Of a DNA stretch of 28,447 bases, positions 2,954 to 28,245 are shown piece by piece (the first letter of the stretch is position 1; the number at the start of each line of letters is the position of its first letter). The stretch is from IMG/VR virus record IMGVR_UViG_3300024431_000023, positions 1 to 28,447 of that record; one strand, written 5' to 3'. The notes beneath the pieces are model-generated. The model ran no database searches, was not told where the DNA came from, and was given only the letters and a program-made list of their open reading frames with translations. A program made the position numbers and the translations under genes. The stretch is from a virus.

Positions 2954-3252
2954 TATTCGTCAAATAAAATTACAGCTTGACCGCTAACAGTAAGCTTCCT
3001 AAATCTGCCGTTTTCTCCGGCTCCATCTGTTGCTGTAATGAGTACATCGCCAGCAAAAGCGGCTGCCGCTGAATATTTGGCTTTTACATCCGTTGCGCTG
3101 TCGTTGTCTTCTTGCAGTTCGTCTATTGTTGTTCCTGCGAATATTCTAAAGCCGTAAAATTTGGCTCCTACGATTGTTGCATCGTATGTTGTGGTAATCA
3201 TTTTCGTGCCTTCTTTTGCTACGATTTTTTCTAGTGGGCTTAATTGTGACAT
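2953..3252 (-). CDS. Small structural-type protein, 99 aa
   Basis: The 99-residue protein has a middle that reads like a set of beta strands (TTTYDATIVGAKFYGFRIFA, then VLITATD and KLTVSGQAVILF). I recall similar short proteins, with a TTTYD...GAKFYGFRVF pattern, among tail genes of Bacteroidetes phages, but no function is established for them. The start shares one base with the region of the downstream start (overlap at 2953), and it lies 2 nt after the stop of the 302-residue gene. It may be a small trimeric tail-tip or fiber subunit. That is inference from position. Confidence 0.6.
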   Translation of the reverse strand: MSQLSPLEKIVAKEGTKMITTTYDATIVGAKFYGFRIFAGTTIDELQEDNDSATDVKAKYSAAAAFAGDVLITATDGAGENGRFRKLTVSGQAVILFDE

Positions 3253-3254
3253 AG

Positions 3255-4163
3255 TTAGTTAAATTTTCGTCCTAAATAATTCTCTCGTTTACGTGTAAAT
3301 TTCAGGCTTACTACAACATTTGCATTGTCCTCGAAGTTTGTAATCTTTGTTTCTGGTTTTGGAAACACTGGTTCCTCTTTAAAGTCAAACGCGTTGCACT
3401 GGTTGTAATCTGAAATAAATATTTGGTCGGTTAATACGTTGTTCCGTGATAAGAACCTAAACATATCCCCGCTTATTAATTTTGAATCTACTGAATAATT
3501 CGGAACTGTTTGCATTTGAAAACCGTTCCTATCCCTGACCGTTGTTAAATAGCTATCAAAAGTTTCGTCTGGATCTATTTCGCTAACCCTGCCCGGCAGC
3601 CTAACCGATTGAAACCAATTTAAGCCAATATAGTTAAATTCTGAGGCTTCAATGTTAGAATTCATTATTGTATCAATTCTTACACTTCCATCAGCGGCAT
3701 AGCTTGAGTATTGCATTACGCGGTATTCGGCACTATCGGATGTTGTTAGGTTAGAAAGTATTGTTGCCTCGGTTACTACCTTGTATATGCCCCCGCCAAA
3801 CGCTAAAAACACTAAAGTCCAGTCTACTAAGTACCCCACATATAGCGGTTGTGGTACCGTTGTAGGGAAATATGTTCCGTATGCGTTTGTATTCAGTGTG
3901 GCTACTTCGACATCATCGAGGAAAAGCTTCATAACGATTGTATCACTTGCCAATGCTTTACGCCTTAAAAACTGTTTTTGGTCTTTGGTGAATGATGTGG
4001 CTGTTGGCGAAGTGTCGGCAAATTGGTCTTCTATAAATTTACACGAAAGGCATTCGTCAGAAACGACATCTACTGTAGGTGTGCTGAAATTGCCCAATAA
4101 TTCAGTATAGGAAATTTCCTCTAAATTTCCGGGTGTTAGATTTGTTAAAAACTGAATTATCAT
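3255..4163 (-). CDS. Putative tail-tip structural protein, 302 aa
   Basis: The 302-residue protein is beta-rich and acidic, with a clear C-terminal basic end (KFTRKRENYLGRKFN). A cysteine pair near residues 37-41 (DECLSCKF) is notable in an otherwise cysteine-poor protein. It overlaps the 784-residue gene by 4 nt and is followed 2 nt later by the 99-residue gene, so all three are likely made and assembled together. No domain is recognised. Its position after the tape measure and hub genes argues for a tail-tip or baseplate-periphery component. Confidence 0.62.
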   Translation of the reverse strand: MIIQFLTNLTPGNLEEISYTELLGNFSTPTVDVVSDECLSCKFIEDQFADTSPTATSFTKDQKQFLRRKALASDTIVMKLFLDDVEVATLNTNAYGTYFPTTVPQPLYVGYLVDWTLVFLAFGGGIYKVVTEATILSNLTTSDSAEYRVMQYSSYAADGSVRIDTIMNSNIEASEFNYIGLNWFQSVRLPGRVSEIDPDETFDSYLTTVRDRNGFQMQTVPNYSVDSKLISGDMFRFLSRNNVLTDQIFISDYNQCNAFDFKEEPVFPKPETKITNFEDNANVVVSLKFTRKRENYLGRKFN

Positions 4164-6514
4164 GCCAGTCTATACGTTAATTCGTAACCTTGTCCGGGCA
4201 CGACTTTCGTGTGGTCTACTTCAAACTCGAAAATAATATCATTTGCATTTATTGTAACATCGATAAACGATGATAATGGTAATGGTATTAGTGCCGAATT
4301 TGGAGAGCCGGGCTTGCTTGTATGTATCCAACTTATTGCCCCCCCGCTGCTTTGTTCTGGTTGCATTGCGGCCCAACCATCAATTGCGAGTAAGCCGTGA
4401 CCGGCCTTTGTAAATGTGGCTTCGACTACCGTGTTTTCGGTGTCGTTTTGGTTTAATAGGTTTTTCCCTATATCAACGCCTGACTGATTTTTATAAATGG
4501 TAGTAACCACCCAACCCGTGCCGCCTAGTGCAGAATCAAATATCAGGCAATCGGCAGATATTCCACGATAAGCAGTATTCGAAATTCCATTAAATATTAC
4601 CGCGTCCACAAAAAACACAATGTTATATCCGTTTAATGCTGAGTAATTGGAGGCTTTAAAATTTAGATTGTTGTTAGGTTCTGCATTGTCATAAAATACC
4701 GAATCTACATTTGGATTAGGGATAAAATCTTCAAACCTAATCACAAACGGAATTGTCGCTTCGTAAGAATACCCGGTAGCAAATAGGTTATCGTTTGCCA
4801 ATGTGATAATATTTAAGGGGTCTGAAACATCTAAATCAAAGCCGCCTAATGTGTTAATATTCCAATTCTGGACAATAAGTCCGCCCTGAGTATTAATAAC
4901 CTGTGACGACAAATCAAAAGTGTAAGTATCTAAAATAAAGCTGTCGCCCGTTGTTGAGTTATACACTGCCAGGCTAACCGATAAGCTTTGCAAAATAGCC
5001 CCAATCGCCTGATGAAGAAAGAACGGTAAATAACACTGTACTAAATCTCTATTCCATCCCGGAAAGTCAGATGTTCCGGTAAATGGTGGAACGGTTGCCC
5101 AATTGCGAATTTCAAATTTATCATCGATAAGAAATAAATTCTGTACATCGGGCGATTCCGTGTATTTGGTATCATCGGCCAAAACAGGCACTCTGTCGGA
5201 TGTTTCGTTTGTTAAAAGGTGGTTTTCAATTGTAACCCACAATAGATAATCCCGTAAATTGGTTAGTATCTGTTGATTTTGAACCGAGTAGCTAATCCTC
5301 GCCCGTATGGTCATTGATGAAGTGGAGGCAAATGTGGTTTCAAGGTCTTTTATAATGCTACTGCTTACGGGTGCCGCCCCTGCCGTTTGCAGTTTTTGGT
5401 CAAACCGCCATATTCCTTGAAAGGTGTCGATACTCGGCCCCATCTCCACGGTTGTAGGGAGAAAAGAATGGTTTAATACAAACTTAGTATTCGTTACGTT
5501 AAAGGTTGAGTCCGCTGAGTTTATTACAATTCTTATATATGTATCCGCGCTTACTTGTAAACTATCTACCGGGTTAAGAAATGCGGCATCTTCATAATAT
5601 TCCATTGTTGTGATAGAATACTGACTATTAAGCCCGTTGAACCTTTCGCCAAACCCGCCAACATCCCCAAAATAATTCCTTTCTTTTGCTTTTATTTTAC
5701 TGTTCTGATTGTTGAACACCCTTAAAAACCCTGCATCGAACTCATATTTCAAACTGTTTGCCCCGCTTAAAATTGCGGGTTGTTGTCCTATTGAAATCGT
5801 TGGCAGGTCGCCCTCCAAAAAGAACGGCAAAACGATAAATTCATGTTCTATTTTGAACGTTTGTGTGTATGGTGATGCGTTAAATGTTACGGTGTCTGAA
5901 ACGAAACTAACGTCAACGTTTCCCGTTACCCAACTTTGATTGACGCCTAATCTTGTTGCTGTAACGGTTGCGGGTGTTCGTCCGCCAAATATGCCGGGGC
6001 TTATTCCGTCAGCTTGATACCTTTGGTCGCTGCCGTCTATTTTTGAAACAAAATTAAATGGTTGGCTGTTTTCAAGTATCCCGAAATCAAATTCAAATGC
6101 CGTTAATGGGGTTTTATATTGTACCCACATATTTATCGATGTAACGGAAGATATCGGTAATCCGCTGAATTTCAATTCCCCGCCATTCAGGCCGAAACCT
6201 GTAATAGTCCGTCCGGTGGCTAAGGCTGTGTATGTTGGCACCAAATCAATAACATCAATAGTATCACCAACATCAAATTTATCAGCTATAAAGGAACCCG
6301 ATTGCCTAAAAACCGAGTTGCCTCCGGCCGTAAATACGGAACCCGAAGTAGAGTGGGCTGAATTAAACACCTCCACTTCAAATACTGCCTTCATTCTTTC
6401 GCCAATACTACAAGCCAGATTTAACGTGAAATCATTTGGGTTTAAAGTAAAGTCAGCCCCGTTCTTTAGTTGGGTATAAAACTTTCTCGATACTATGTTA
6501 AAATCTTGCGGCAT
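4160..6514 (-). CDS. Large beta-rich tail protein, candidate receptor-binding or baseplate component
   Basis: The 784-residue protein is the second largest in the window. It is dominated by alternating beta-strand patterns with many Asn, Asp, Ser and Thr, and has almost no predicted helix, coiled coil or membrane segment. This composition is typical of phage tail-fiber, tail-spike or baseplate proteins made of stacked beta domains. Internal segments such as VSDPLNIITLANDN and the C-terminal VDVTINANDIIFEFEVDH-like strands suggest several Ig-like or jelly-roll units, but I see no exact repeat. It lies between two small beta-rich genes and the 302-residue gene. The specific function is not shown. 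Confidence 0.6.
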   Translation of the reverse strand: MPQDFNIVSRKFYTQLKNGADFTLNPNDFTLNLACSIGERMKAVFEVEVFNSAHSTSGSVFTAGGNSVFRQSGSFIADKFDVGDTIDVIDLVPTYTALATGRTITGFGLNGGELKFSGLPISSVTSINMWVQYKTPLTAFEFDFGILENSQPFNFVSKIDGSDQRYQADGISPGIFGGRTPATVTATRLGVNQSWVTGNVDVSFVSDTVTFNASPYTQTFKIEHEFIVLPFFLEGDLPTISIGQQPAILSGANSLKYEFDAGFLRVFNNQNSKIKAKERNYFGDVGGFGERFNGLNSQYSITTMEYYEDAAFLNPVDSLQVSADTYIRIVINSADSTFNVTNTKFVLNHSFLPTTVEMGPSIDTFQGIWRFDQKLQTAGAAPVSSSIIKDLETTFASTSSMTIRARISYSVQNQQILTNLRDYLLWVTIENHLLTNETSDRVPVLADDTKYTESPDVQNLFLIDDKFEIRNWATVPPFTGTSDFPGWNRDLVQCYLPFFLHQAIGAILQSLSVSLAVYNSTTGDSFILDTYTFDLSSQVINTQGGLIVQNWNINTLGGFDLDVSDPLNIITLANDNLFATGYSYEATIPFVIRFEDFIPNPNVDSVFYDNAEPNNNLNFKASNYSALNGYNIVFFVDAVIFNGISNTAYRGISADCLIFDSALGGTGWVVTTIYKNQSGVDIGKNLLNQNDTENTVVEATFTKAGHGLLAIDGWAAMQPEQSSGGAISWIHTSKPGSPNSALIPLPLSSFIDVTINANDIIFEFEVDHTKVVPGQGYELTYRLA

Positions 6515-8521: not shown

Positions 8522-10248
8522 GCTGCTGTTTTAGTTTCTTTTAATGTTGCATCGTATGGGCGTTGTATTCTGTACTTAATTTTTGCTTTGTCTTTTCCTA
8601 CTTCCCATTCAATAAAATCTACTCGGCCTTGCTCCCCCGTGGGCAATACAAACCGATTATAATCAATCAAAGTTAAAAAATCTTGCATTCCGAATGGAAT
8701 TTCTGCCTCATATAATTCAAATTGACCCGATCTTCCGTTGTCTACAAACGATTTTTCTACATGGTACGTGTCCCATAAATACTCCGAGCTCCATATTTGT
8801 CGGTGATTAGCAGGAATTTTCCCGGCTGCATTTAGTGGTATTATTTTGGCCGTGTTAAATGTGTCCTCCGATAAACGCAACATTCCAACCCGTCCAGATA
8901 TTCCGCTTGCTAAATCAGAATCCCCGCCAAAGAAATTAACCACGTTGTCAATAGCGGTAGCAACTTGTAATACAGCCAACTCAATGTCGGTTAGCCCGTT
9001 CTTTCTCGCCCCCCTTGCAATGCCGAAATCAATTATATCGGTGCCTTTTATGTCCACATCTTTAGGGTTGGTCACAGATACGTGCGTGGTTACAACATCA
9101 AAACCCGTTCCATCGTATTGCCTTATTGTGTATTTATCTGATTGGTCGGATGCAAAATTTAGGCTATTGAGCATTTTCAACTCATCCGAATTCCCAACCC
9201 ATGTTTCATTTAATACATCCGGTTTAACCCAACTGGCTTGCTGATTCCAAAATGCAGTATTAATAAGTGGTTCTAAATGAAATTTATTTCCTAGTACAAC
9301 GGTTTTAGCATAGCCTATTTTACCCATTAATTGCAACATGGTAAAGACCGTTTTTCCTACGTCCTGTTGCTTTGTTGGTATGCCTACCCCTGGTTGTCCT
9401 GTTTGCTTGTTGCCTTTGGCGTCCTTTGACGGGAGATAAATATAATCCAATTCGGGCATCGACCCCTCAAACTCATAGCCGAATTTAGTCATAGCTACCT
9501 CGAGCGCGGTTCTAATTTTTATGCCTTTGTGGTACCGGACATCGGATATAATGAACGCGATAATGTCTTTGCCCAACTGAACAAGGTAAATAACCTGTAA
9601 GGCCGCGAGAGCAACATTTAAAAGCAGTATGGCACCCGCTTGGATTAATGCAGCAAGCGAACCCGTTATCCCGCCTCCTAATGTTGCCGCAATTGAAACG
9701 ACTTGATTTGCAATTTTATCAGCGGTTTGAATTAATTGCTGTATCATTAAGTAAGCCGAAATAGACAGCATCAACAACTGAATAAACTCTTTGTCGGGGT
9801 CTTCTACAACGTAGGGAACGTCCGTATACATTGAGTTAGGGAATAACCCTTCGTCCGCCAACAGGCTAAACGTGGTACCCTTTGCGCGTTCGTTTATTGT
9901 GAATACATTGTCGTCCCGAATGATTTTGGCTTCTACTTCTACCGGGCTTATTTCCTTGTATCCTTCCGTTTGGCTTATCCTGCCCCTAAAAGCCGAGAAG
10001 TTGCTTGTCGGGTCGGTTAAATTCATTTCAAATGGCAGCCCAACAAACACCCCCGGAGTTGAACCATTGGCCCCGCCTATTCTGTTGGCCCGTAGCTTTT
10101 CCGCTGCATCTTCAACAAACGTCATTGTCGTTGTTGATATTTGGGCCTGAACGTTATCGTTGGGCCATGTGGCTAAAAGGGTTGTGTTAATCCAATCCTT
10201 TACGCCTTCGCTTGGCTGCCCGTCTATTTTAAAACTAACGTTGTTCAC
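8518..10248 (-). CDS. Putative baseplate-hub/distal tail protein with long hydrophobic stretch
   Basis: The 576-residue protein directly follows the tape measure gene, where phages usually encode distal tail or baseplate-hub proteins. Residues 1-130 are beta-rich, as in distal-tail N-terminal domains. Residues about 155-235 are strikingly hydrophobic and Ala/Leu/Ile-rich, with at least two membrane-length segments. The rest mixes alpha and beta. The C-terminal 60 residues (GRVDFIEWEVGKDKAKIKYR) look like a small beta domain. The start is GTG at 10246-10248, overlapping the tape measure stop as GTGA. A hub that touches or inserts into the host envelope during DNA ejection fits, but that is inference. 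Confidence 0.6.
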   Translation of the reverse strand: MNNVSFKIDGQPSEGVKDWINTTLLATWPNDNVQAQISTTTMTFVEDAAEKLRANRIGGANGSTPGVFVGLPFEMNLTDPTSNFSAFRGRISQTEGYKEISPVEVEAKIIRDDNVFTINERAKGTTFSLLADEGLFPNSMYTDVPYVVEDPDKEFIQLLMLSISAYLMIQQLIQTADKIANQVVSIAATLGGGITGSLAALIQAGAILLLNVALAALQVIYLVQLGKDIIAFIISDVRYHKGIKIRTALEVAMTKFGYEFEGSMPELDYIYLPSKDAKGNKQTGQPGVGIPTKQQDVGKTVFTMLQLMGKIGYAKTVVLGNKFHLEPLINTAFWNQQASWVKPDVLNETWVGNSDELKMLNSLNFASDQSDKYTIRQYDGTGFDVVTTHVSVTNPKDVDIKGTDIIDFGIARGARKNGLTDIELAVLQVATAIDNVVNFFGGDSDLASGISGRVGMLRLSEDTFNTAKIIPLNAAGKIPANHRQIWSSEYLWDTYHVEKSFVDNGRSGQFELYEAEIPFGMQDFLTLIDYNRFVLPTGEQGRVDFIEWEVGKDKAKIKYRIQRPYDATLKETKTAA

Positions 10249-13200
10249 ATCATTTCGTTTTTGTCGTTAGCAGTAAGCGGCCTGAGTGGGTAATGGGTGT
10301 TGTGCAATTTGTTGCCCATTCTTTGGGATTCAATCCATGCTTTATTCCTTGCATCAAAATCTCCCCCCGCATAAAATGGCTTGTTTTTAATTTCAGTCGC
10401 AACATTTACCAAAAGCCTGGAAGTTGTTTTTTCCAAACTTGCTATTTTTTGCTCTAAAATATATGTTCCCGATGGTGCCGATTTTGGAACACCTATCATT
10501 TGTGTGACAGGAATATTAAAGTAATTGTTAGGGTCGAAAGTATCGTTGTTGATGTCTTGGAGTATGTCGGGGTGCTTTGCCGTGCCTTGCGCATTAACTA
10601 CAAACTCCGGCCCCTTTTCATTAACCCGTATAACTTGCTCCCCGCCTGTAACTTCACCGCCTTTTTCAAACGCCCCAATTGAATCAATAAAGGCGAACAG
10701 CGCGGTAATGTCGCGTATTGTTGTCGTTAATGGTTGGGCATCGCCTGATTCTGATGCCTGTGTAAACCTTTGCAGTGCAGCAAGCCCGGCCTCAATCTTT
10801 TGCCGCTTCTTTTGTTCTTCAATTTTTTTGGCTTCAAGTTCTGCCTCGCGCCTTCTTTCAACTGCTAAACTATCGGCAGCATCCGCATTTCCAGCCTCAA
10901 ACAATCGCTTTAATTCTTCCTGTTGACTTTGTGAATCTGATATTTGTTTATCAATTAGTGCCTCACGTTCTTCTGATCGCTTAGTTGCTAAATCAGCCTC
11001 AAATTGTGCTATTTCATTTAACGCATTTCGCCTGTCTTCTCTGGCATCATCTTCTGCTTGTTTTATTTTTGCTATTCGATCTAATTCAATTCTTTCAATC
11101 TCAGAATTTTTATCTCTGGCTAATTCTGCAAGGTCATTTTCTAACTTTATATTAATGGTTAAAATCTGATCTGCTGTGAATCCCTCTGCCAATAATCTAG
11201 CTTCTGATTCGCGTATCAAGGCTTCGGCTTTCATTTCGAATCGAGCATCTATTATGCCTTGGAGATTGGAAAGGTTGCTTTCAATATCAAGCCCCGCCTG
11301 TTGGCGTTCTTCTATCATTTCCAACTCGGCATCAAATGCCTCGTCTAAAAATGCAAGCCTACCCCTTTCGGTTTCCTCCAAAAGTTCGCGCTCATCGTCT
11401 GCTTTTGATCTTAGGATCTCGATTCGTTCTTTACGGTTTTTGTCTTCTTCTTCTTCTGCCTTGGCTTCAAATTTATCCCTTACCCCCTGTATGTCTTCGG
11501 CTAGTTTTTCAGCTATTTCAATACGTAAATCTTTTTCAACTTGTGCGTTGCCTTTAATTCGCGCTAATTTATCCGATGCCTTTGCCTCAATGAATTTGAT
11601 TTCTTTTTCTTCTCCATCTTTTAGCCGGGCAATTCTAAGGTCTCGCAGTTCTCGCTCGATTTGCGCAAGGTCTGTTCCTGTTTTTCCTGCTGCTTGAAGC
11701 TTCTTTTTATTCGCCCCTAATATGGCTTCAAGTTCAATGTTCAATAACTTAATTCGTTCTTTTATCTCGTCTGCCTCGGCTTTGGTGGTGGCCTTTTCTA
11801 TCCTTCCTTTTTCGGCTGCAATATCGGCTCGTATTGCTGCAACGGTTCGCCCGGATTCCTCCTCTAATTGAACACGGGAATTCAATTCGCCCTCAACAAG
11901 AGATATGCTAACAACCAGGGCGTCTCTGTCTATTTTTAATTTGTCGGATTTGGCTTGTGTTTTTAGACTAATTTCTTTTTGTCCTGCTTTTTGTAATACC
12001 TCGAAAGCCTCGTTTTCTATTTTCTTAATTTCATCAATCCTTCCCTGTTCTCTGTCTATTTTCTTTTGAAGGAATTTCTTTTGATTTTCATCTTCTGAAT
12101 TCGCTTGTGCTTTACGCAAACTTGCAGCAACCTTTTCTATCTTGTCTATCTTCTCTTGAGCAATTTCGTTGAATTGTATTTTATTTATCGAAATTCTTTG
12201 TTCACCGCCTATAATTTTACTTTCCTGCTCATCAATTAAAGCAAGTTCTTCCTTCAATCTGTCTTTAAGACTTTGGAGTTGTTGCTCGTTTAGTTTTTCA
12301 CGTGCCGCAACCTCATCCTTGATATCTTCAACCCGTCCCGCGCGCTGATCTTCTGCTACTTTTAACTCTTTAATTAATTGGAGTTCACGCTCTAATTCTT
12401 TGTTTCGCTTTTTCTCGGCTACGGTCAATTGCTCCACCTCACCTCTAAACAGGACAAATGCCGTAACCAACGTTACTACCGCTGAAAGAATTGCAGCAAA
12501 AGGAATTGCTTTCAAGGCTGCGCTAAATCCTTTTATTGGGTTCTTTGCTATTTTAAAAGCTGTCGCCACTCGCGTTATACTTCTGCGAAACAACTTTAGC
12601 GATACGACACCACGCCTAAGAACTTTGCTTAGAATTCCATTTTCTTTATTGAAAAGCTTTTGTGTAATCCTAAACGTGGCAAATGCGGTTCCGGCAATAA
12701 CCAACACTTTAACCAGTGCTTTAAATGCCTTACTGTTTCTTTGCACGAATTTCACCATACTGATGAAAGCTTGCTTAACGCTGTTTAAAACAGGTGCTAA
12801 CGAACGCCCTAATTCGATGGACATTACTTTTAATTCACCGTTTAGCCTTTTAGTTTCTTGTGCTGCACTTTCTTGCTTCAACTCAAACTGTTGCAATCTG
12901 CTACTAGCTTCGCCTGTATCTTCGGTTACTTTAAGTAAAATCTCATCGTATTTGTCTAACCCTTCCGCTTGCAGTGCATTCGCTGCGGTTAACGCCTTTA
13001 TATTCGGTAGAATCTTAGCGATAGCATCTTCATTTTCTTCGGCAGCAATGCTAATATCTCGCAAAGCCTTACCCAACCCAACCTTTTTCAACTCACTAAT
13101 ACTTGTCGGGATGTTTAAGCCTAATTCTTCATTTAGACTCTTGATAGCTTCTACGGCCGAATCTGTTGGTTTTTCTAATGAGAAAATAAGCCCTTTAAGT

Positions 13201-14372
13201 GATGTTGTTGCCTCTGCTGTAGATAGCCCCCCTAGCGTTAGTGCTGATTGTGCTGATAATAATTCCTGAAATGAAACACCAGCTTTAGACGCGATAGGCG
13301 CGATAGCACCAATTGCCCCGGCTAATTCCGCTACATTTGTTTTACCCTCAACTTGAGCCGTGAAAAACGCGTCCTGCACTCGTGTTAGGTTGTCTATCCC
13401 ATCAACAACGTCTAAAGCCTGTAATCCGTAAGCATTCAGGATACTTGTAGTGCCGTCAACAATTACCCCTAAATCTGTATTTCCTGCAATAGCTGTTTTT
13501 GCAGATTCGTTCATAAACGCAATCGCATCTGCTGCGGGAATACCTGCTGATACGGTATCAAATAAAGCCTTGTTTACATCTTCAATTGAAAATCCATAAT
13601 CCTTAATTAAATCTAACGCTCCTTGCTCGAAAGATGATCCGAATTCTTTTACCTCATCGGAAGAAAGCAGTCCAAAAGTATCGGTTAGTGTGGCGTTGAA
13701 TTCATCGAAATCAGTCGCGGCTTGCCTACCTACTTGCATCGCCTTATTTACCCCAACCATCGCTACCGCTGTGGCGATAAGCTGACCTGTAAACCTTTTT
13801 AATGAGGCTGTGGCCTTTTGTAAAAATTTAGGATATCGACCTGTGGATTGGTTTACTTTGTCTTGTCGTGCTTTTAAGTCTTCGAATGTCTTTAGGGCTG
13901 CACGGCCTTGCGCTGTGTTGGCTTTGCTTGATGCTGCTAAGTCTTGGTATTTCTTTCTGGCATCTGCTACTGATTTAGTGAGTTTTTCAAACGCGCCCAC
14001 CAATCCCAGTTCTGTTTTTGCTTGCTCTTTATTGGCCTTGATTCGCTGCGCTGTTAAAACCTTTAATGTTGCTTGCTGCTTTCCTTGCTCGGAATTTGCA
14101 ACTGATAATTGTTTCATTAGGCGCAACCTAGTTTTTTCGGTTTCGCTTAAATCGTCATTTGCTTTTTTAAGTTTCTGCTTTCCGGCAGCCATCTTATCAA
14201 GGTCGGAAGATGGCGCGTTGAATTTTATTTTACTAAGTTCTTTTGCAAGTTCTCCCGTTTCCCGCTTGATTTCATTTATCTGCTTTCTTGTCTCGACTAA
14301 ATCAGCTATAAGGTCGCGTATAGGCTTGTTAACCGCCCCTTCAAAAATGCTATCTTCATTAACTTTGCTCAC
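10245..14372 (-). CDS. Phage tail tape measure protein (TP901 type)
   Basis: The 1375-residue protein is the largest in the window and sets tail length; at 0.15 nm per helical residue it would span roughly 200 nm. Residues 1-190 are coiled coil. Residues about 215-490 carry the TP901 core with motif KALFDTVSAG (268-277), DAIAFM and a repeated GTTSILNAYG-like pattern. Hydrophobic, probably membrane-active segments lie at about 552-570 and 622-643. A long charged Glu/Lys coiled coil follows (650-1190). The C-terminus has the conserved FEKGGEVTGGEQVIRVNEKG motif. The start is GTG at 14370-14372, supported by AAGGGA four bases upstream; no ATG fits. Confidence 0.92.
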   Translation of the reverse strand: MSKVNEDSIFEGAVNKPIRDLIADLVETRKQINEIKRETGELAKELSKIKFNAPSSDLDKMAAGKQKLKKANDDLSETEKTRLRLMKQLSVANSEQGKQQATLKVLTAQRIKANKEQAKTELGLVGAFEKLTKSVADARKKYQDLAASSKANTAQGRAALKTFEDLKARQDKVNQSTGRYPKFLQKATASLKRFTGQLIATAVAMVGVNKAMQVGRQAATDFDEFNATLTDTFGLLSSDEVKEFGSSFEQGALDLIKDYGFSIEDVNKALFDTVSAGIPAADAIAFMNESAKTAIAGNTDLGVIVDGTTSILNAYGLQALDVVDGIDNLTRVQDAFFTAQVEGKTNVAELAGAIGAIAPIASKAGVSFQELLSAQSALTLGGLSTAEATTSLKGLIFSLEKPTDSAVEAIKSLNEELGLNIPTSISELKKVGLGKALRDISIAAEENEDAIAKILPNIKALTAANALQAEGLDKYDEILLKVTEDTGEASSRLQQFELKQESAAQETKRLNGELKVMSIELGRSLAPVLNSVKQAFISMVKFVQRNSKAFKALVKVLVIAGTAFATFRITQKLFNKENGILSKVLRRGVVSLKLFRRSITRVATAFKIAKNPIKGFSAALKAIPFAAILSAVVTLVTAFVLFRGEVEQLTVAEKKRNKELERELQLIKELKVAEDQRAGRVEDIKDEVAAREKLNEQQLQSLKDRLKEELALIDEQESKIIGGEQRISINKIQFNEIAQEKIDKIEKVAASLRKAQANSEDENQKKFLQKKIDREQGRIDEIKKIENEAFEVLQKAGQKEISLKTQAKSDKLKIDRDALVVSISLVEGELNSRVQLEEESGRTVAAIRADIAAEKGRIEKATTKAEADEIKERIKLLNIELEAILGANKKKLQAAGKTGTDLAQIERELRDLRIARLKDGEEKEIKFIEAKASDKLARIKGNAQVEKDLRIEIAEKLAEDIQGVRDKFEAKAEEEEDKNRKERIEILRSKADDERELLEETERGRLAFLDEAFDAELEMIEERQQAGLDIESNLSNLQGIIDARFEMKAEALIRESEARLLAEGFTADQILTINIKLENDLAELARDKNSEIERIELDRIAKIKQAEDDAREDRRNALNEIAQFEADLATKRSEEREALIDKQISDSQSQQEELKRLFEAGNADAADSLAVERRREAELEAKKIEEQKKRQKIEAGLAALQRFTQASESGDAQPLTTTIRDITALFAFIDSIGAFEKGGEVTGGEQVIRVNEKGPEFVVNAQGTAKHPDILQDINNDTFDPNNYFNIPVTQMIGVPKSAPSGTYILEQKIASLEKTTSRLLVNVATEIKNKPFYAGGDFDARNKAWIESQRMGNKLHNTHYPLRPLTANDKNEMM

Positions 14373-14829
14373 TTAATCCCTTAACATAGGTGTAAAACAT
14401 TTTAACGCTTGTGCGGTGTTGATCTACAACAACTTTCCGGTGTCGCTCAACCAAGTCGACTATTTTTTCATACCTCATCTTCTCTGTAGGATCTTCTGAA
14501 TCCATTTGGTTCTGTTTGGCTCTAATGAGGTTTTTAATTGTCCTGTCGCCTGTTTGCAAGAGGCGACACTCCATAATTAAAATAGCCCTTTCTTGCCTTA
14601 GCATCCTTTCAAATTCAGGAGAAAACCCAAAGAAATCTAAAAACTCCCGGTTAAGCTTTTCCCAAACAGCCCCGAAATCCGGTTCTTCTTTAATATCATA
14701 GTAATCGAGTGGGTCGGCTGCATACAGATATTTAAAACTTTCGGTTTCTTTTACCTGGTTGTAATTCCAAATAGGGAGCGTTTCAATTGACCTATGGTGT
14801 TTAAAGTTGCTCAACTTGCCTATGTACAA
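14359..14829 (-). CDS. Putative tail assembly chaperone-position protein, 156 aa
   Basis: The 156-residue, largely helical protein lies immediately before the tape measure gene, overlapping its start by 14 nt; phages normally encode a tail assembly chaperone here. It has aromatic-rich N-terminal third (LPIWNYNQVKETESFKYLYA) and a helical charged C-terminal half (FERMLRQERAILIMECRLL onward). No family is recognised. No ATG is near: the first in-frame start-like codon is a TTG at 14827-14829, and the frame is open back to about 14888 inside the preceding gene. It could start at TTG or be made by ribosomal frameshifting (+1 or -2), so the start is unsure. Confidence 0.6.
   Translation of the reverse strand: MYIGKLSNFKHHRSIETLPIWNYNQVKETESFKYLYAADPLDYYDIKEEPDFGAVWEKLNREFLDFFGFSPEFERMLRQERAILIMECRLLQTGDRTIKNLIRAKQNQMDSEDPTEKMRYEKIVDLVERHRKVVVDQHRTSVKMFYTYVKGLSEQS
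14377..14382 (-). promoter_or_regulatory. Shine-Dalgarno-like site for the tape measure gene
   Basis: On the minus strand, AAGGGA ends 4 nt before the GTG at 14370-14372. It is one of the few Shine-Dalgarno-like sites here, and it supports that GTG as the tape measure start; no ATG fits the frame. Confidence 0.5.
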
Positions 14830-15256
14830 AGTTTTGGGCTTCTGTGATAAACCTATTAATAAACCTTTGAAAGTCCTTTTCAGGTATACCTACCACGTCT
14901 TCACCGTAAATGTCAAATAGGTTTTTATCATCCTTATCCCCGTCTGCAAATAGCAAAAAATAACTACCATCAGGAGCAACAAAGACACGCCATGTTTTGT
15001 AAAAATCTCCCTCATTAAACAGTGTTACGTGTCCAATGGGGAGATTTGGCTTAAACTTCTTTTTTAATTTAACGGTAAACGGGGAGTAGGTACCTAAAGA
15101 AACTCCTTTGGTATCCGTTCCTGTCTTAAAAAGGTGCAATTGATTTAATTCAATCACAAATTCCTGCATATCAGGAACCAACATTACCCCTTTAAGAATC
15201 TCCCGGTTGCTCGTTTTTGCCGCTAGTCTTTTTAGCCGCTGTTCTAATTCCAGCAC
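14801..15256 (-). CDS. Tail-completion-like virion protein, about 151 aa
   Basis: The core reads IELNQLHLFKTGTDTKGVSL, then GTYSPFTVKL, and later HVTLFNEGDFYKTWRVF. I recall small virion-associated proteins of Bacteroidetes phages with an LYxKGxDxKGxSLGxYSPxT...DTGDFYxSF pattern; they lie in neck or tail regions, and their exact role is not established. Length is typical. No ATG fits the full-length form: the frame opens at GTG 15254-15256, 65 nt inside the preceding gene. An ATG at 15182-15184 preceded by AGGGG two bases away would give about 127 residues. I prefer the GTG because the extra N-terminal helix fits the family pattern. Confidence 0.6.
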   Translation of the reverse strand: MLELEQRLKRLAAKTSNREILKGVMLVPDMQEFVIELNQLHLFKTGTDTKGVSLGTYSPFTVKLKKKFKPNLPIGHVTLFNEGDFYKTWRVFVAPDGSYFLLFADGDKDDKNLFDIYGEDVVGIPEKDFQRFINRFITEAQNFVHRQVEQL

Positions 15257-15389
15257 TTTTTCCAGTTATTTCCTTGTACGCCTTTTCCAAAGTCATTCCG
15301 AAGGGAACGTTGCCACACGAGGCAGCGAACTCTTCGAAAGTTAATTCTTTGATGGCTTCTTCGTTTACGTGTGTTTGTCCTATTTTCAT
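15192..15389 (-). CDS. Small acidic-to-basic tail-region protein, 65 aa
   Basis: The 65-residue protein follows the putative tail tube gene with a one-base TAATG overlap. Its first part (VNEEAIKELTFEEFAASCGN, then MTLEKAYKEITG) is helical. The tail (KSAGIRTAAKKTSGKNEQPG) is basic and flexible. A small protein of this kind between tail tube and tape measure often belongs to the tail-assembly chaperone group. Its last 65 nt overlap the next gene in a different frame (+1 or -2 relative), longer than other overlaps here. Function is inferred from place only. Confidence 0.62.
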   Translation of the reverse strand: MKIGQTHVNEEAIKELTFEEFAASCGNVPFGMTLEKAYKEITGKSAGIRTAAKKTSGKNEQPGDS

Positions 15390-20603: not shown

Positions 20604-20918
20604 TTATGTTGTTAATTGATAAAATTTCCAAAACCTTTTTCTCCTGAATGGTTTTCTGTTTTGGTTAAAACGCCCTACCCTGTGATAAGATAACTCTACG
20701 TGAATTTTCCAGAAACCAAACAGTAATGATCGCCTACAATTATTTGATGTGTTCCAAATGGGGAAAATCTGCCATTTGTCCGACCACCTTATGCCGTATG
20801 CGATGCATATATGCTGCCAAGATTTCTTTTCACCTTGCCAAATTATTTTATACCCATGGTATTTGAAGCCTGTTCCAGCTTTTTTACTTTTCCTCGCCTT
20901 AATAATCCAGTGTATCAT
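20604..20918 (-). CDS. Small basic, Trp-rich protein of unknown function, 104 aa
   Basis: The 104-residue protein is strongly basic and unusually rich in Trp, Phe and His. Segments include KYHGYKIIWQGEKKSWQHIC (about residues 19-38) and a C-terminal basic tail RKPFRRKRFWKF. Its ATG is 15 nt after the stop of the preceding gene, and its stop is 24 nt before the scaffold ATG, so it fills an otherwise empty 355-nt gap. It does not look like any head protein I know. The skewed composition could also mean a non-coding stretch read by chance or a nucleic-acid-binding protein acquired by insertion. Coding status is only moderately sure. Confidence 0.5.
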   Translation of the reverse strand: MIHWIIKARKSKKAGTGFKYHGYKIIWQGEKKSWQHICIAYGIRWSDKWQIFPIWNTSNNCRRSLLFGFWKIHVELSYHRVGRFNQNRKPFRRKRFWKFYQLTT

Positions 20919-22033: not shown

Positions 22034-23827
22034 CTATTGTGCTACTGGTGTTGGCTCTGGTTCCGCTTCTACTTTTGGCACTGTTACAAAATCGCCTATA
22101 ATTAGTTGAATGGTTTGTATTGCCGTCCGCATGGTTGGCTCGCCTGGTAATGTGTTTATGAATACCAAAATGTCACCGTGCTCGCCCTCAAACATTCTGA
22201 TGTACTTAGCAAAGTTATTTCGTAGTTCCCTGTCTTCTGGCGATACGGTGGCATTATTAAATTGGTCGTCCGTCATTCCTCCGTATGGGTACAGCCTGTC
22301 GATTATTTGCTTTTTAGCCAGCGAGCGGCTGTCGTTCCTGTATTTGGTTTTGTCGATACGGTCTTGGATTACTGTCCGCTCCAACGTGTTGTCGGCCTTG
22401 CCTTTTAATTCCAGTAATTGCATTTCGCTTTCCAGTAGGAAGTCGTCCCCGTTGTTTATGGATGAGCCTCGGTATATTTGGCCGAATTTCAATTTCAATA
22501 CGTGGTTGTCGGCCTTTGTTCTAACCTTAGCTAAGTCGTTGCCAAAATCAGTTAATACGTCTTTTTGGGTTTGTATGATTTCGCCTATTTGTTTTAGGTT
22601 CTTGGCTTGCCCGTTGTCGTCTTGGCGTTTGCCTATCATTCCGACAACAATATCCACGGCCCTAAATTTAAGGTTTTTCTCCCACCATTCTAAAATCTCG
22701 GGTGGCACGAAATGGAACTTAATAAAGTTGTCGTTTAGGTCGATTACCTTTTGCGATGAGTCGGTCGCTACCGGGGGTTCAAATGTGTGTATACTTCCGG
22801 CCTGTATGGTTGGCGCGGCATTACATGCAGCACACGGCAATAGGTTTTCCCGGTTTGGTGTTAGCCTAAACGTTCCCGATGTGTCCGTCAAGTATCCCCC
22901 GTTACATATTTCGCCCGTGTTGAATGTTTTACCACACGGTTCCTTTGCCTGTTTGTACATGGTGACAATTGGCATGGCCCCGTTCGGTAATAGCATATCG
23001 AATAAAGCTTGATACACAACAAACTTTTTGAATTCGTCAAGCATTGTGCTTGCTATGTGCTTGCGTAAAAAGAATCGTTTGCTGTTTAATGGCTCTGGTG
23101 ATAAAAATACAGCGGGGCATTCTTCTAATTTGTGGTCTGCGTGGCTTATTTGTATATAATCTCCTGCGCCTCCTTCTGTTTGTTCCCTTACGTGTGATGA
23201 GAAAAATAAATCGGTATAGTAGTAAAACACCTCGACCATTTTGTCCTCAACCGTGAATGTTTCGGTAAATACTAAGCCTTTAATTTGCTTGTCCCGGCCT
23301 TTTTTTATTGCCAGCACTTGTCCGGGCCCAACTATGTGACGGTATGGCTCGCCTCCGTTTACGGGTACGTCTGTAATTATAATGGCGTTGTGGTTGTAAA
23401 GGAAGTCATTAAAATTGTCTTTGAACCAAGTGTCCAGCCCCTCGTCCCGCATAAATTCGGTTCCTACTTGCCTTTCTTCTTCCTCTGTGTACACATAATC
23501 ATAGTTACTGTTTTGGCCATCGTGTACCTTTTTTAAGTGTGGGTAAATTGATTTCTGGAATATCTTGGACGATGGTAGCGGGTAATTTATCCACTGCTTA
23601 ATTGACTTTAGGTTGTCGGGGCGCATCCAGCTTTTTAGCCAACGTATTAACAAGTTGTTGTCCTTGAATATGTTGGAAAATATATCGTTGTTGGTGTCGA
23701 GAAAAGTCTTGTTATAGATGGTTTGGGTGAATTGTGGCTCGATGTAAAAGCTGATATGGTTCTGGTAAGTTACCGCCTCATCCCTCTCGGTGTTGGGGTG
23801 CTTTTCTATGAATGTTTTAATGTCCAC
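22034..23827 (-). CDS. Portal protein
   Basis: The 597-residue protein directly follows the terminase large subunit with an 11-nt overlap, the standard portal place, and its length fits. Mixed alpha/beta N-terminal wing (residues 1-260) is followed by segments typical of the stem and crown, including a helix at about 378-420 (VPPEILEWWEKN to DIVVGMIGKRQDDNG with NLKQIGEIIQTQKDVLTDFG) and a long helical part to 520. An unusual insertion at about 298-335 holds four cysteines (C298, C308, C332, C335) in a zinc-ribbon-like layout. The start is GTG at 23825-23827; no ATG is near. Confidence 0.82.
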   Translation of the reverse strand: MDIKTFIEKHPNTERDEAVTYQNHISFYIEPQFTQTIYNKTFLDTNNDIFSNIFKDNNLLIRWLKSWMRPDNLKSIKQWINYPLPSSKIFQKSIYPHLKKVHDGQNSNYDYVYTEEEERQVGTEFMRDEGLDTWFKDNFNDFLYNHNAIIITDVPVNGGEPYRHIVGPGQVLAIKKGRDKQIKGLVFTETFTVEDKMVEVFYYYTDLFFSSHVREQTEGGAGDYIQISHADHKLEECPAVFLSPEPLNSKRFFLRKHIASTMLDEFKKFVVYQALFDMLLPNGAMPIVTMYKQAKEPCGKTFNTGEICNGGYLTDTSGTFRLTPNRENLLPCAACNAAPTIQAGSIHTFEPPVATDSSQKVIDLNDNFIKFHFVPPEILEWWEKNLKFRAVDIVVGMIGKRQDDNGQAKNLKQIGEIIQTQKDVLTDFGNDLAKVRTKADNHVLKLKFGQIYRGSSINNGDDFLLESEMQLLELKGKADNTLERTVIQDRIDKTKYRNDSRSLAKKQIIDRLYPYGGMTDDQFNNATVSPEDRELRNNFAKYIRMFEGEHGDILVFINTLPGEPTMRTAIQTIQLIIGDFVTVPKVEAEPEPTPVAQ

Positions 23828-25307
23828 TTATGTTGTAATTAAATTGTCCGGTTAAATAATACGTATGGACGGCCGCTGTAAGGTTGTCCAGTTGGTCGTC
23901 ATAGTTACCATTCGGAAACGTTGAAACCTCGTTAACAAATTGTTTATTCCACCCCCCTATCACAAGGTAAACGTGTCCGGCTTCAATTGTTGGGCTTGAA
24001 TCCTCGGCCCTTGAATATTTGCCTTTTTTTACAATCGAATTGGAAACGGGTACTGCATTATATCCCTTAACTGTTAGCATCGAGTCCAATGATTTGCCGC
24101 TTGCCTTGTGCTCAATGTATACTGTTCCTTTGCGATTATAATCAACTGACTTAGCAAATTTAGGAAAATATAATAAAAATTCATGCAGCTTCAACCATTT
24201 TTGTGTCGATAGCAGTATGTATAAGTCATTTCTAAAGTTGATACAGGCCATTAATGCACTTGGGTCGTTCTTGGTTTGGTCTGTATACGCGCCATCAATG
24301 AAAATATCAATCTTTACCTCGGATAGTTTAAATGGTAAGGCTGATTTTTGTATGTAATTAAACCACGCCTTTTTGATTAAGTCGCCTTCCTCGGGTGCCG
24401 GGCGTTGTTGGTTAAGTGATGCGTGTGTGCGTGGCCTTGTACGTGCTTCCCTTTCGAATTTAGCACGTGCATGTTTTTCTTCCCATAATGCCTCACCTAT
24501 TTCGCGGGGGTCTTCGGGATCTAAATCATCTTCCTTTAATGCTGGTATTTTTATTACAGTCCATTCGGCTGCTTCATCTGCGTCATAATGTGGGTTGTTT
24601 GGGTCTAGTATACGCCCTGCCGGGTCGTCCTCGTGCCATCTGGTAAACAGTAGCAATTGTCTGCTTTTGTTGTGTAGCCGCTTTACAAATACGTCTGTGT
24701 AGAAGTCCCAAAATGCGTCCCTTTGAAGTTTGCTTTCTGCTGATTTCCTGTCTTTGAATGGGTCGTCAATAATTCCTAAATCAACGCTAAAGGATGTGAG
24801 CGAACCCTCAACGCCAACGGCTTTAAGATAGCCCATGTGGTCGACAATTTCAAATATTTTAGAGTTGCGTAACACACCCCTCTTCATGTCTGTGGACGTG
24901 TTTTTGCCGTTTAGCTTTGTGCCTGGGAATAAATTAGCATAGTCTGGATGGTCGATTATTTGTTGTACGTTCCTATTAAACCCCTCGGCTATTGTTGCAC
25001 CATACCCAACCAATGCTATTTTTTCGCGTGGTAGGCGACCTAATGCGTATGCAGGAAAGTGTCTGGAACTTAATTGGCTTTTGCCGTGCTGAGGTGGTAT
25101 GAAAATCATCAGCTTTTTTATTACACCCGCTAACAATTTATCCAAGGCGTCACAAATGCGCTTATGGAACCACTTCATTTGATATTCCGGCATTGTGTAT
25201 TGCACGAAATCGGCCATGGTGTTCCGTGCCTTTTCTTTCCTTATGGCATCGTCAAGCAATATTTCATACTTTACCGCTTCTATTTGGTCAAGCTCGCCTA
25301 AGGCCAT
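23817..25307 (-). CDS. terL: Terminase large subunit
   Basis: This 496-residue protein is the DNA-packaging motor with ATPase and nuclease. Counting from the ATG at 25305-25307: the Walker A-type loop IPPQHGKSQLSSR is at about 70-82; Walker B with catalytic acid is VDLGIIDDP at about 175-183; the coupling motif LLLFTRWHEDD is at about 218-228. The RNase H-like nuclease follows, with acidic residues in FIDGAYTD (about 337-343), YIEHKAS (397-403) and NYDDQLDN (468-475). The frame is open 37 codons further upstream, but that stretch is Cys-rich, unlike the family, and shadows the small subunit's end. I chose the start that overlaps the small subunit by 20 nt. Confidence 0.95.
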   Translation of the reverse strand: MALGELDQIEAVKYEILLDDAIRKEKARNTMADFVQYTMPEYQMKWFHKRICDALDKLLAGVIKKLMIFIPPQHGKSQLSSRHFPAYALGRLPREKIALVGYGATIAEGFNRNVQQIIDHPDYANLFPGTKLNGKNTSTDMKRGVLRNSKIFEIVDHMGYLKAVGVEGSLTSFSVDLGIIDDPFKDRKSAESKLQRDAFWDFYTDVFVKRLHNKSRQLLLFTRWHEDDPAGRILDPNNPHYDADEAAEWTVIKIPALKEDDLDPEDPREIGEALWEEKHARAKFEREARTRPRTHASLNQQRPAPEEGDLIKKAWFNYIQKSALPFKLSEVKIDIFIDGAYTDQTKNDPSALMACINFRNDLYILLSTQKWLKLHEFLLYFPKFAKSVDYNRKGTVYIEHKASGKSLDSMLTVKGYNAVPVSNSIVKKGKYSRAEDSSPTIEAGHVYLVIGGWNKQFVNEVSTFPNGNYDDQLDNLTAAVHTYYLTGQFNYNISGH

Positions 25308-25869
25308 GAATAGCGAAATCGGCTCGCATGTCGAGCAGTTCAGGCAAAGACTTGCCGTCAAACAAATCAGCCACTTTTTGTTTATTATCCTCTTCATAAA
25401 ATCCAATGTGTCGGGCAATCATGTCGATTGCTTTTTCCTTGCTTACAAAGGTTAGTTCAATGGTGTCTATTGTTTCAACCACTTTGCCTTTGTCGTTCCT
25501 TATTTTGCGCTGTGTGTGCTTGTATTTATTGATTAAACGCCTGAATTCCTCCGGCATGTTCTTTAATTGTTCAATGGTTAGGTTTAACGCTTGGGTAATG
25601 TCTGAAAATGCCCAATTATGCAACTCCCTCAACAGGGTTTCGTTGTTAATGCTAAACTTTTTATCCGCAATTTTCCTTTTGATTGCCTTTAATTCCTTAA
25701 TCCTTGCCGCGACCTTGGGGTTTGTCATTAATCGGCTTGCTTGCTGCCATATTGTAGGGTTGGACATCTTTTTAGCGTTGTACGCTGCCCGGTACGCTGC
25801 CGATTGGTCGTCATTGGTTGCGACCCCTTGGCTAAATTTTTCTTGTTTATTTGTTAACCCTTTTTCCAT
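25288..25869 (-). CDS. terS: Terminase small subunit
   Basis: The 193-residue protein binds the packaging site and brings DNA to the large subunit. Its N-terminus has the small-terminase pattern LTNKQEKFSQGVATNDDQSA, then AYRAAYNAKKMSN and WQQASRLMTNPKVAARIKEL (about residues 5-60), which is the helix-turn-helix DNA-binding domain of the Terminase_2 family. The middle helices (74-130) are likely oligomerisation, and the C-terminal part would touch the large subunit. Length is normal. The ATG lies 1 nt before the end of the preceding gene's stop region, so it is probably coupled. It precedes the large subunit as usual. Confidence 0.92.
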   Translation of the reverse strand: MEKGLTNKQEKFSQGVATNDDQSAAYRAAYNAKKMSNPTIWQQASRLMTNPKVAARIKELKAIKRKIADKKFSINNETLLRELHNWAFSDITQALNLTIEQLKNMPEEFRRLINKYKHTQRKIRNDKGKVVETIDTIELTFVSKEKAIDMIARHIGFYEEDNKQKVADLFDGKSLPELLDMRADFAIHGLRRA

Positions 25870-26163
25870 TTAATTAGGCGTGATGCTTTTAAATGATTCG
25901 TTAAGGCTGTTGACGTTTTGTTGCCCGTTGGCGGCTGCTTCTGCAAGATAATCAACAACCGTTTTACCTTTTAGCGTAACTTTCTTTAAGAATTCTATTG
26001 CGTCCCCTGGGTTTACTCCTGCTGAAATGGTATCGAACAAACCCTTTTCCAGTTTAGGCATAGGTATATTTAGCTTTTGAGACATCAATGCTACGCTAAC
26101 CGAGAGGTGCGCTTTATACATATCTAATTCATTATGGGTTAATAAGGCTAATACATCTTTCAT
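25870..26163 (-). CDS. Mini-protein carrying a tape-measure-core motif, about 97 aa
   Basis: The frame opens at GTG 26187, but ATG 26161-26163 is more likely and gives about 97 residues. Residues around 40-60 read KGLFDTISAGVNPGDAIEFL. The tape measure at 10245-14372 has KALFDTVSAGIPAADAIAFM at residues 268-287, so 13 of 20 positions are identical without gaps. The preceding helix also fits (ALMSQKLNI against ALDLIKDYG). This pattern is a hallmark of the TP901 tape measure core, and the DNA has diverged at synonymous sites, so it is not a recent copy. The stretch continues helical to the C-terminus. It is the first gene before the terminase small subunit. Function unknown. Confidence 0.7.
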   Translation of the reverse strand: MKDVLALLTHNELDMYKAHLSVSVALMSQKLNIPMPKLEKGLFDTISAGVNPGDAIEFLKKVTLKGKTVVDYLAEAAANGQQNVNSLNESFKSITPN

Positions 26164-26195
26164 TTGTTTTTTGTTGTTTATAAACACCCAATGAC

Positions 26196-26258
26196 CCCGC
26201 GTCCCTCATTCAATCCTTCTACATAAGGACTAGAACACGTCTTGGCGAGGGGCACGGG
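26196..26258 (-). repeat. GC-rich inverted repeat in the gap before the packaging genes
   Basis: Arms at 26247-26258 and 26196-26207 pair over 11 of 12 positions on the minus strand (one G-U pair, one C-A mismatch; arm CCCGUGCCCCUC). Inside, AGTCCTT (26226-26232) pairs with AAGGATT (26213-26219) around a 6-nt loop. The 26188-26286 region has no reading frame of note and is much more GC-rich than its surroundings. Position just ahead of the terminase small subunit makes a packaging (pac or cos) or RNA regulatory element plausible. No U-run follows the 3' arm, and it does not fold as a tRNA. Confidence 0.65.
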
Positions 26259-26286
26259 ATAATGCAGTTTTTTCATTGGTTGTTAA

Positions 26287-27292: not shown

Positions 27293-27772
27293 TTAGGCGT
27301 TTTTGATGGTAATGTCTGAAATTATGTAGTGGAAATGCTTCTTTTTTGTGTTTAGATTGGCTTTACAAGTGTTTAGCCGTGTTAGCGTGTGTTCATCCCA
27401 ATGTTTATTTTTAGCAAGTATGTAAAAATCCTTTCCCTGCATATTTACGTTAATTCCGTTCATTTTGTTTTTGAACCCTTTTATCGCGGTTAGTATTTCG
27501 CCAATGCTGCCTACTCCTGTCAGCTGGTTTACTGTTGGGCCAAACCTTTTTATTAAGTCATATGATAATTCTGGCATATATCGCTTCATTGTGGTTGCGT
27601 ATGCCATTAATGCCCTTCGGCTTGCTGCAATGTGATGCGGGTCGAATCCGCCATCGTCAAGCCTTAATACAAAGTACTCCGCGTTTTTATCAACTGCTTT
27701 GCCGTCAATTTTTTTTAACTGGAAACGTTTATGGTACCCGTTAGGGTTTTGCTTTTTGGTTGGTGTTGCCAT
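27293..27772 (-). CDS. Conserved-type phage protein, 159 aa
   Basis: The 159-residue protein contains DKNAEYFVLRLDDGGFDPHH and then AASRRALMAYATTM (about residues 28-61). I recall this 'YFVLRxD...DPxHxxASRxALxxYA' pattern from conserved small phage proteins of unknown function in several phyla. The first 30 residues are basic and flexible (ATPTKKQNPNGYHKRFQLKK). The C-terminal part has TNKNKHWDEHTLTRLNTCKA-type helices. The usual family members are similar in length. Its role is not established, and the accessory cluster before the packaging genes gives no further clue. Confidence 0.68.
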   Translation of the reverse strand: MATPTKKQNPNGYHKRFQLKKIDGKAVDKNAEYFVLRLDDGGFDPHHIAASRRALMAYATTMKRYMPELSYDLIKRFGPTVNQLTGVGSIGEILTAIKGFKNKMNGINVNMQGKDFYILAKNKHWDEHTLTRLNTCKANLNTKKKHFHYIISDITIKNA

Positions 27773-27774
27773 GG

Positions 27775-28245
27775 CTATTTTTTTTGATAGTGTTGCTGTA
27801 GTTTTTTATCTATTTTGTCTTTTAACCATTGTGCTCGTTCGTAGTTTTCGTTACTTACTGCTATGGCTAATTTCCCTTCCAGGCTTTCGACTGTATCCTC
27901 AAATTTACGCTTTTTTAATTTTTCCGTTAAATTTCTGTAATTACCCTTGTGCTTTGGGGTGTTAGATGAGCAATTACATCCGCTTTGTAGTGCGTTTAAA
28001 ATACGATCGGTTGCCTCGCTTATTGATACGCTTTCCTCTCTCATATAAAGGCGTATAGGCCAAAACAATTTGAACGCATCTTTAATGAATATCCCGGCAG
28101 CCAATATGCTGAACAGCGATTTGACCCAATCCTGATTCATTACTAAAATGAAACATTTGTAGTCTGCCCAATCGCAAGGGTGCATAATTGCCCGTACTTC
28201 TAGCATTTCGGTTGTGAAGGCTTCGTCTTCTGTTGAATTATCCAT
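27775..28245 (-). CDS. Protein with a C-terminal UVR motif, 156 aa
   Basis: Residues about 118-150 read VESLEGKLAIAVSNENYERA then QWLKDKIDKKLQ. This matches the UVR motif (LExxLxxAVxxExYExAAxLRDxI), a helical hairpin that mediates UvrB-UvrC contact and also occurs in ClpC and McsA. Residues 40-65 are hydrophobic (VKSLFSILAAGIFIKDAFKL) and could be a short membrane or buried helix. A CNC pair at 90-92 lies between. Nothing else is recognised. The protein overlaps the preceding gene by 8 nt. Its function could be a protein-protein contact module; the motif itself is clear, the role is not. Confidence 0.65.
   Translation of the reverse strand: MDNSTEDEAFTTEMLEVRAIMHPCDWADYKCFILVMNQDWVKSLFSILAAGIFIKDAFKLFWPIRLYMREESVSISEATDRILNALQSGCNCSSNTPKHKGNYRNLTEKLKKRKFEDTVESLEGKLAIAVSNENYERAQWLKDKIDKKLQQHYQKK

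Follow-up and report, generated by a model that had tools for sequence, protein, structure and literature searches.

A gene adjoining that of the small terminase in a phage very probably encodes a free-standing relative of the tape measure protein core

The small gene that immediately precedes the terminase genes of a phage from the IMG/VR database very probably codes for a protein that is related to the core of tape measure proteins (TMPs) of the TP901/PhageMin_Tail kind but is free-standing, shorter and strongly diverged, as judged from its sequence and predicted helix pattern. The TMP-core domain is known, and so is the slot beside the terminase genes; what appears new is the presence of a free-standing TMP-core mini-protein there, as our literature and database searches found none located beside the small terminase gene. 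It is possible, although we regard it as doubtful, that the phage has turned a piece of the TMP core into a free-standing decoy against TMP-targeting inhibitors, at the head of its packaging genes.

The phage record and the mini-protein gene

The window, i.e. the whole stretch of DNA analysed, corresponds to an entire, linear IMG/VR record of 28,447 bases. All the genes that we interpreted are on the minus strand, namely those for the small (terS) and large (terL) terminase subunits, the portal, capsid and tail proteins, the TMP and the distal tail proteins. The full-length TMP (1375 aa, 10245..14372, minus strand) is of the TP901/PhageMin_Tail kind (PF10145, E=1.5e-26; TIGR01760, E=5.5e-26). 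The terS gene (25288..25869, minus strand) was recognized with phrog_51 (E=1.4e-21) and PF03592 (E=7.7e-14), and terL (23817..25418, minus strand) with phrog_38 (E=1.4e-86). The closest terminase relatives are those of Flavobacterium phage 1/32 and of metagenomic contigs (50-52%), and by eye the leaders of the window appear to be poor in Shine-Dalgarno sequences, which together make a Bacteroidota host likely. Two other small ORFs of the minus strand have unusual features. The 104-codon ORF at 20604-20918 has a coding score of 0.004 in its own frame versus 0.101 in another frame, and this absence of coding signal suggests that the ORF may be spurious or may conceal a frameshift. The product of the ORF at 27293-27772 weakly resembles PHROG 9572, 'sulfatase-modifying factor enzyme' (E=2.5e-8 over 73 residues), which is unusual in a gene of this small size located ahead of the packaging genes.

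The mini-protein gene (25870..26163, minus strand) codes for 97 residues from an ATG at 26163 or for 105 residues from a GTG at 26187. An ORF of approximately 97 residues directly ahead of the terminase genes, at 26187..25870 on the minus strand, is present as an earlier note on this DNA had described it. Its TAA stop codon (25872-25870) directly adjoins the ATG of terS at 25869; the gene is thus beside terS and co-directional with it, and it is separate from the TMP gene, which is 12 kb distant. The coding score is 0.276 bits per codon in frame, versus -0.18 and -0.16 in the other two frames, and its synonymous codon choice, which is phage-like, beats 99% of composition-matched random choices. 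As a product of 97-105 residues encoded beside terS, the mini-protein has neither the length nor the tail-module location of a functional tape measure protein.

Upstream of the GTG codon, the 99-nt intergenic leader (26188..26286, minus strand) has a strong predicted RNA fold, with an MFE of -38.1 kcal/mol and a z value of -4.0; none of 200 shuffled sequences was as stable. The folded RNA, of approximately 100 nt, is closed by a CCAATGA/TCATTGG pairing. The leader had no Rfam match at the gathering score, the sole sub-threshold match, to tRNA, being outside of it. No relatives of the leader RNA were found, as a 16-mer scan yielded scattered exact matches without further similarity. The predicted fold makes this region a candidate leader RNA or packaging-site dyad.

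Homology to the tape measure core

The relationship was initially noticed in a 20-residue stretch, KGLFDTISAGVNPGDAIEFL in the mini-protein and KALFDTVSAGIPAADAIAFM in the TMP, with 12 identical positions rather than the 13 agreeing positions first counted. BLASTP aligned the mini-protein with the TMP of the same phage at 35.0 bits (E=4e-7), and none of 1000 shuffled mini-proteins matched its alignment score. In an all-against-all comparison of the 38 genes of the window, these two proteins are the top non-self pair, with 35 bits versus 25 for the next one.

All the TMP-core profiles that we cite as independent evidence were built without the TMP of the window. A broad profile, made of the TMPs of named phages plus those of a small number of viral contigs, detected the mini-protein among 3,598 ORFs at 20.4 bits (E=5.5e-5), whereas no shuffled sequence scored above 6.5 bits. 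Using the mini-protein/TMP pair as a scan query, we collected nine full-length metagenomic TMPs of the same subfamily (L097-L105), in frames of 738-1259 aa. A subfamily profile built from seven of these nine gave 39.0 bits (E=1.7e-10 among 5,735 ORFs), as compared with 8.5 bits for the best of 3,000 shuffled sequences. The alignment is ungapped over approximately 65 residues, with residues 4-69 of the 105-aa form (25981..26178, minus strand) corresponding to TMP residues 224-289 (13506..13703, minus strand), and it contains a loop that exceeds the one in other TMPs by two residues, which is a mark of this subfamily.

Searches of the curated databases were negative for the mini-protein, with no tape measure match in Pfam (no PF10145) and none in NCBIfam (no TIGR01760). 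In PHROGs, the tape measure family phrog_991 came up for the 97-aa form with a non-significant E value of 0.087 and was not listed for the 105-aa form. The TMP family is therefore a significant hit in profile searches with our custom TMP-core profiles and not with Pfam, NCBIfam or PHROGs. At the sequence level, the mini-protein is a remote relative of the TP901/PhageMin_Tail core that lies below the curated Pfam and NCBIfam cut-offs.

Helix-[SA]AG-turn-helix motifs are found in unrelated families, and a second protein of the window is a weak look-alike (E=0.5), so that the mini-protein might merely resemble the TMP core by convergence, as a generic helical hairpin that happens to have an 'SAG' turn; we consider this very improbable given the 39 bits obtained over 65 ungapped residues with a profile devoid of window sequences, and the scores of the look-alike itself, 0.1 and -2.2 bits, with the TMP profiles. 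On the basis of those scores, this 156-aa protein (28245..27775, minus strand), which harbours the motif SLFSILAAGIFIKDAFKLF, was rejected as TMP-like.

The similarity may extend further towards the C terminus. Residues 75-104 of the mini-protein (25876..25965, minus strand) probably match the next conserved TMP motif, 'rvadalftaqk.GKTTVeEL..sigkvaP'. With long-core profiles, the last 30 residues scored 7.1-9.3 bits in the correct order, and between 0 and 3 of 3000-5000 shuffled sequences equalled these scores. This match is absent with the subfamily profile alone, and the result, which is profile-dependent, is suggestive. If it is correct, approximately 32 residues of the TMP core are missing from the mini-protein, which suggests that it is a TMP core with an internal deletion. 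In the alignments, the segment without counterpart comprises TMP residues ~300-331 (13380..13475, minus strand), which include a predicted helix (residues 107-120 of the modelled construct).

Predicted structures

AF2 modelled the mini-protein from its single sequence with low confidence (pLDDT 48). The model of the TMP core, based on four sequences, is fair, with pLDDT values mostly of 70-87 in the relevant part. For the first 70 residues, the two separately predicted structures agree in secondary structure at 61 of 70 positions at offset 26, which is the offset derived from the sequence alignment and the best match among all offsets. Helices 18-39 and 43-55 of the mini-protein coincide exactly with helices 44-65 and 69-81 of the TMP-core construct. 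The structure predictions that had been suggested as a check on both proteins thus yielded coinciding helix patterns, within the limits of the low-confidence mini-protein model. The predictions indicate that the mini-protein retains the helices around the 'kaLFDTiSAGv...dAi.Fl' hairpin.

A fold search of the PDB with the TMP core returned no match at E<=0.001, the best being a designed alpha/alpha toroid (E=0.039). In BFVD, the TMP-core model retrieved TMPs, as expected. This search also returned a 162-residue viral protein, A0A1J0MDH7, which aligns with the model along almost all of its sequence (TMt 0.67, E=3.8e-4). Given this nearly full-length alignment, A0A1J0MDH7 is a possible second free-standing TMP-core protein, and further small proteins of this type may exist.

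In summary, the mini-protein shares with TP901-type cores (PF10145, TIGR01760; L097-L105) an ungapped homologous region, the same predicted helices and, probably, the following GKTTV..P motif, a 'GkTtv.eL...vaP' segment before which the ~32 residues would have been lost. In contrast, it is devoid of the remainder of the TMP, and its 97-105 residues are the product of a separate gene rather than part of a frame of 738-1259 aa.

Origin of the mini-protein

In a tree based on 72 columns, the mini-protein clusters with the TMP subfamily (UFBoot 99) as a long-branched sister, with a branch length of 1.54 substitutions per site, and it is not placed beside the TMP of its own phage. It is 33% identical to the metagenomic TMP L097 and 26% identical to its own TMP. 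These sequence comparisons place the mini-protein and the TMP of the phage in the same subfamily, the mini-protein having split off at its base. The long sister branch and the closer identity to L097 point either to an ancient split or to a copy that has evolved very fast. The 26% identity and the tree speak against a gene that arose recently as a duplicate of the TMP gene of this phage, and the same low identity led us to reject duplication during assembly. Profiles, predicted structures and phylogeny thus all bear out the kinship with the TMP core that the earlier note had proposed, as well as its view of an old relationship with no recent duplication. The likeness that it had seen to the TMP of the same phage holds as kinship with the TMP core and not as a special tie to that protein, L097 being closer.

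That the frame is intact and codon usage phage-like despite 1.54 substitutions per site argues for selection on the mini-protein. These features also bear on the possibility that the gene is a functionless TMP fragment, derived by recombination and on its way to being lost. Such a relic would fit with a gene known in one phage only, in a slot that relatives fill with unrelated small genes. Nevertheless, an equally diverged neutral fragment is expected to carry stop codons or frameshifts, whereas the frame of 97-105 codons, the phage-like codons and the helix pattern have been kept after more than 1 substitution per site. We infer that a relic is improbable.

Distribution

Single-sequence searches of phages, IMG/VR and GTDB found no relatives of the mini-protein. 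No TMP-like gene is present upstream of terS at 24 loci of TerS relatives or in TerL relatives, and in these terminase relatives the slot ahead of terS is occupied by unrelated small genes. When ~690 Bacteroidota genomes, 50 virus records and 13 phage records were searched with TMP-core profiles, every matching frame was 598 aa or longer, and none was a free-standing mini-protein. Many of the records searched are fragments, and the nearest relative by TerL is at 52%, such that no close relative was sampled. Among these genomes and records, the free-standing copy of the TMP core is seen in this phage alone.

Possible roles

The simplest reading of the likeness to the TMP core is that the mini-protein would bind partners of that core. 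It would be expressed from the beginning of the packaging/late gene block and would mimic the TMP, binding whatever normally binds the TMP core. In the decoy version of this proposal, it would titrate a TMP-binding inhibitor of tail assembly, perhaps one of the Tab or Rta type, produced by the host cell, by a prophage residing in it or by a satellite. With the inhibitor soaked up, the genuine TMP would be free for tail building. Such counter-defence by target mimicry is our tentative choice as the single most likely mechanism, with a role in assembly nearly as likely.

The location of the gene is in keeping with a decoy. The earlier note could name no known role for a free-standing piece of the TMP core next to the packaging genes; however, the counter-defence genes anti-Tab and AtiEcA occupy the same slot (PMC10884400, PMC11364771). 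Tab of the Pseudomonas aeruginosa phage JBD26 acts via the TMP to block the assembly of tails, and tab genes are always found between the small and large terminase genes (PMC10884400). Anti-Tab, which binds Tab, is the product of JBD26 gene 30, a late-operon gene that immediately follows the one for the small terminase (PMC10884400). AtiEcA (phi80 orf64) is encoded before the packaging module and counters the tail-assembly inhibitor Tai (PMC11364771). Like anti-Tab and anti-Tai genes, the mini-protein gene is small and is located beside the terminase genes; it abuts terS in the same orientation. By position and description, it resembles anti-Tab as a late-operon gene adjoining terS with a link to the TMP, and AtiEcA as a late-operon gene just ahead of the packaging module. 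A mini-protein produced together with terS would suit a decoy role. Nevertheless, anti-Tab follows terS rather than preceding it and is not described as TMP-like, and AtiEcA, for which no TMP likeness is reported either, is directed at inhibitors that act on the central tail fibre or tail needle rather than on the TMP. A decoy in this slot is therefore without direct precedent.

The regions of the TMP that inhibitors target give a mixed picture. Tab acts via the C-terminal portion of the TMPs that it targets and not via the core, which counts against a decoy. Rta, encoded by the satellite PLE11, targets the TMP of ICP1, with escape changes in residues 314-387 (PMC12987554), and this escape region falls within a match to the TMP-core domain PF20155 (TMP_3). 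Judged by motif order, however, the strongest match of the mini-protein immediately precedes the presumed counterpart of this escape region; our custom TMP profiles had no match to ICP1. Rta resembles the mini-protein in its small size (80 aa) and in its connection with a TMP core region, that of ICP1; unlike the mini-protein, it is a satellite-encoded inhibitor of the TMP with no reported TMP likeness. PADLOC returned no match for the mini-protein and, which speaks against a decoy, no recognizable inhibitor gene in the stretch upstream of terS.

Alternatively, the mini-protein might be a tail-assembly factor that binds the tail-assembly chaperone or TMP oligomers, thereby tuning tail initiation or coordinating it with packaging; the genes at 14359-15389 are candidates for the chaperone of this phage. 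A fragment of the TMP could bind the partners of the TMP, and the gene is collinear with the structural genes, abuts terS and codes for a TMP-core-like product. However, a core role predicts wider conservation, whereas the gene is absent from ~60 other phage records, including nine of the same subfamily, and it is beside terS rather than the TMP gene. We regard this role as rather unlikely in its own right, if close behind a decoy.

A TMP piece could also interfere in trans, and a blocked TMP leads to tailless particles, as the cases of Tab and Rta demonstrate (PMC10884400, PMC12987554). The mini-protein might accordingly be a dominant-negative blocker that poisons the tail assembly of competitors of the same subfamily through TMP oligomers or by occupying the chaperone. 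Yet tab is encoded on the other strand and has a promoter of its own, which serves expression from the prophage (PMC10884400), whereas the mini-protein gene is co-directional with terS and tied to it, so that its product would be made when the phage needs its own TMP. Moreover, no lysogeny genes were recognized in the window. This makes a blocker about as improbable as a relic.

TMPs are a recurrent target of bacterial and satellite immunity, being recognized not only by Tab and Rta but also by SNIPE and Ltp (PMC13190303, PMC3952083). A small natural relative of the TMP in a counter-defence slot offers a case in which target mimicry can be tested directly. Should the mini-protein be an assembly factor instead, it would mark the part of the TMP core that suffices for partner binding. 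With either reading, it provides a natural fragment, ~100 residues long, of a core that is difficult to examine as part of the full-length TMP.
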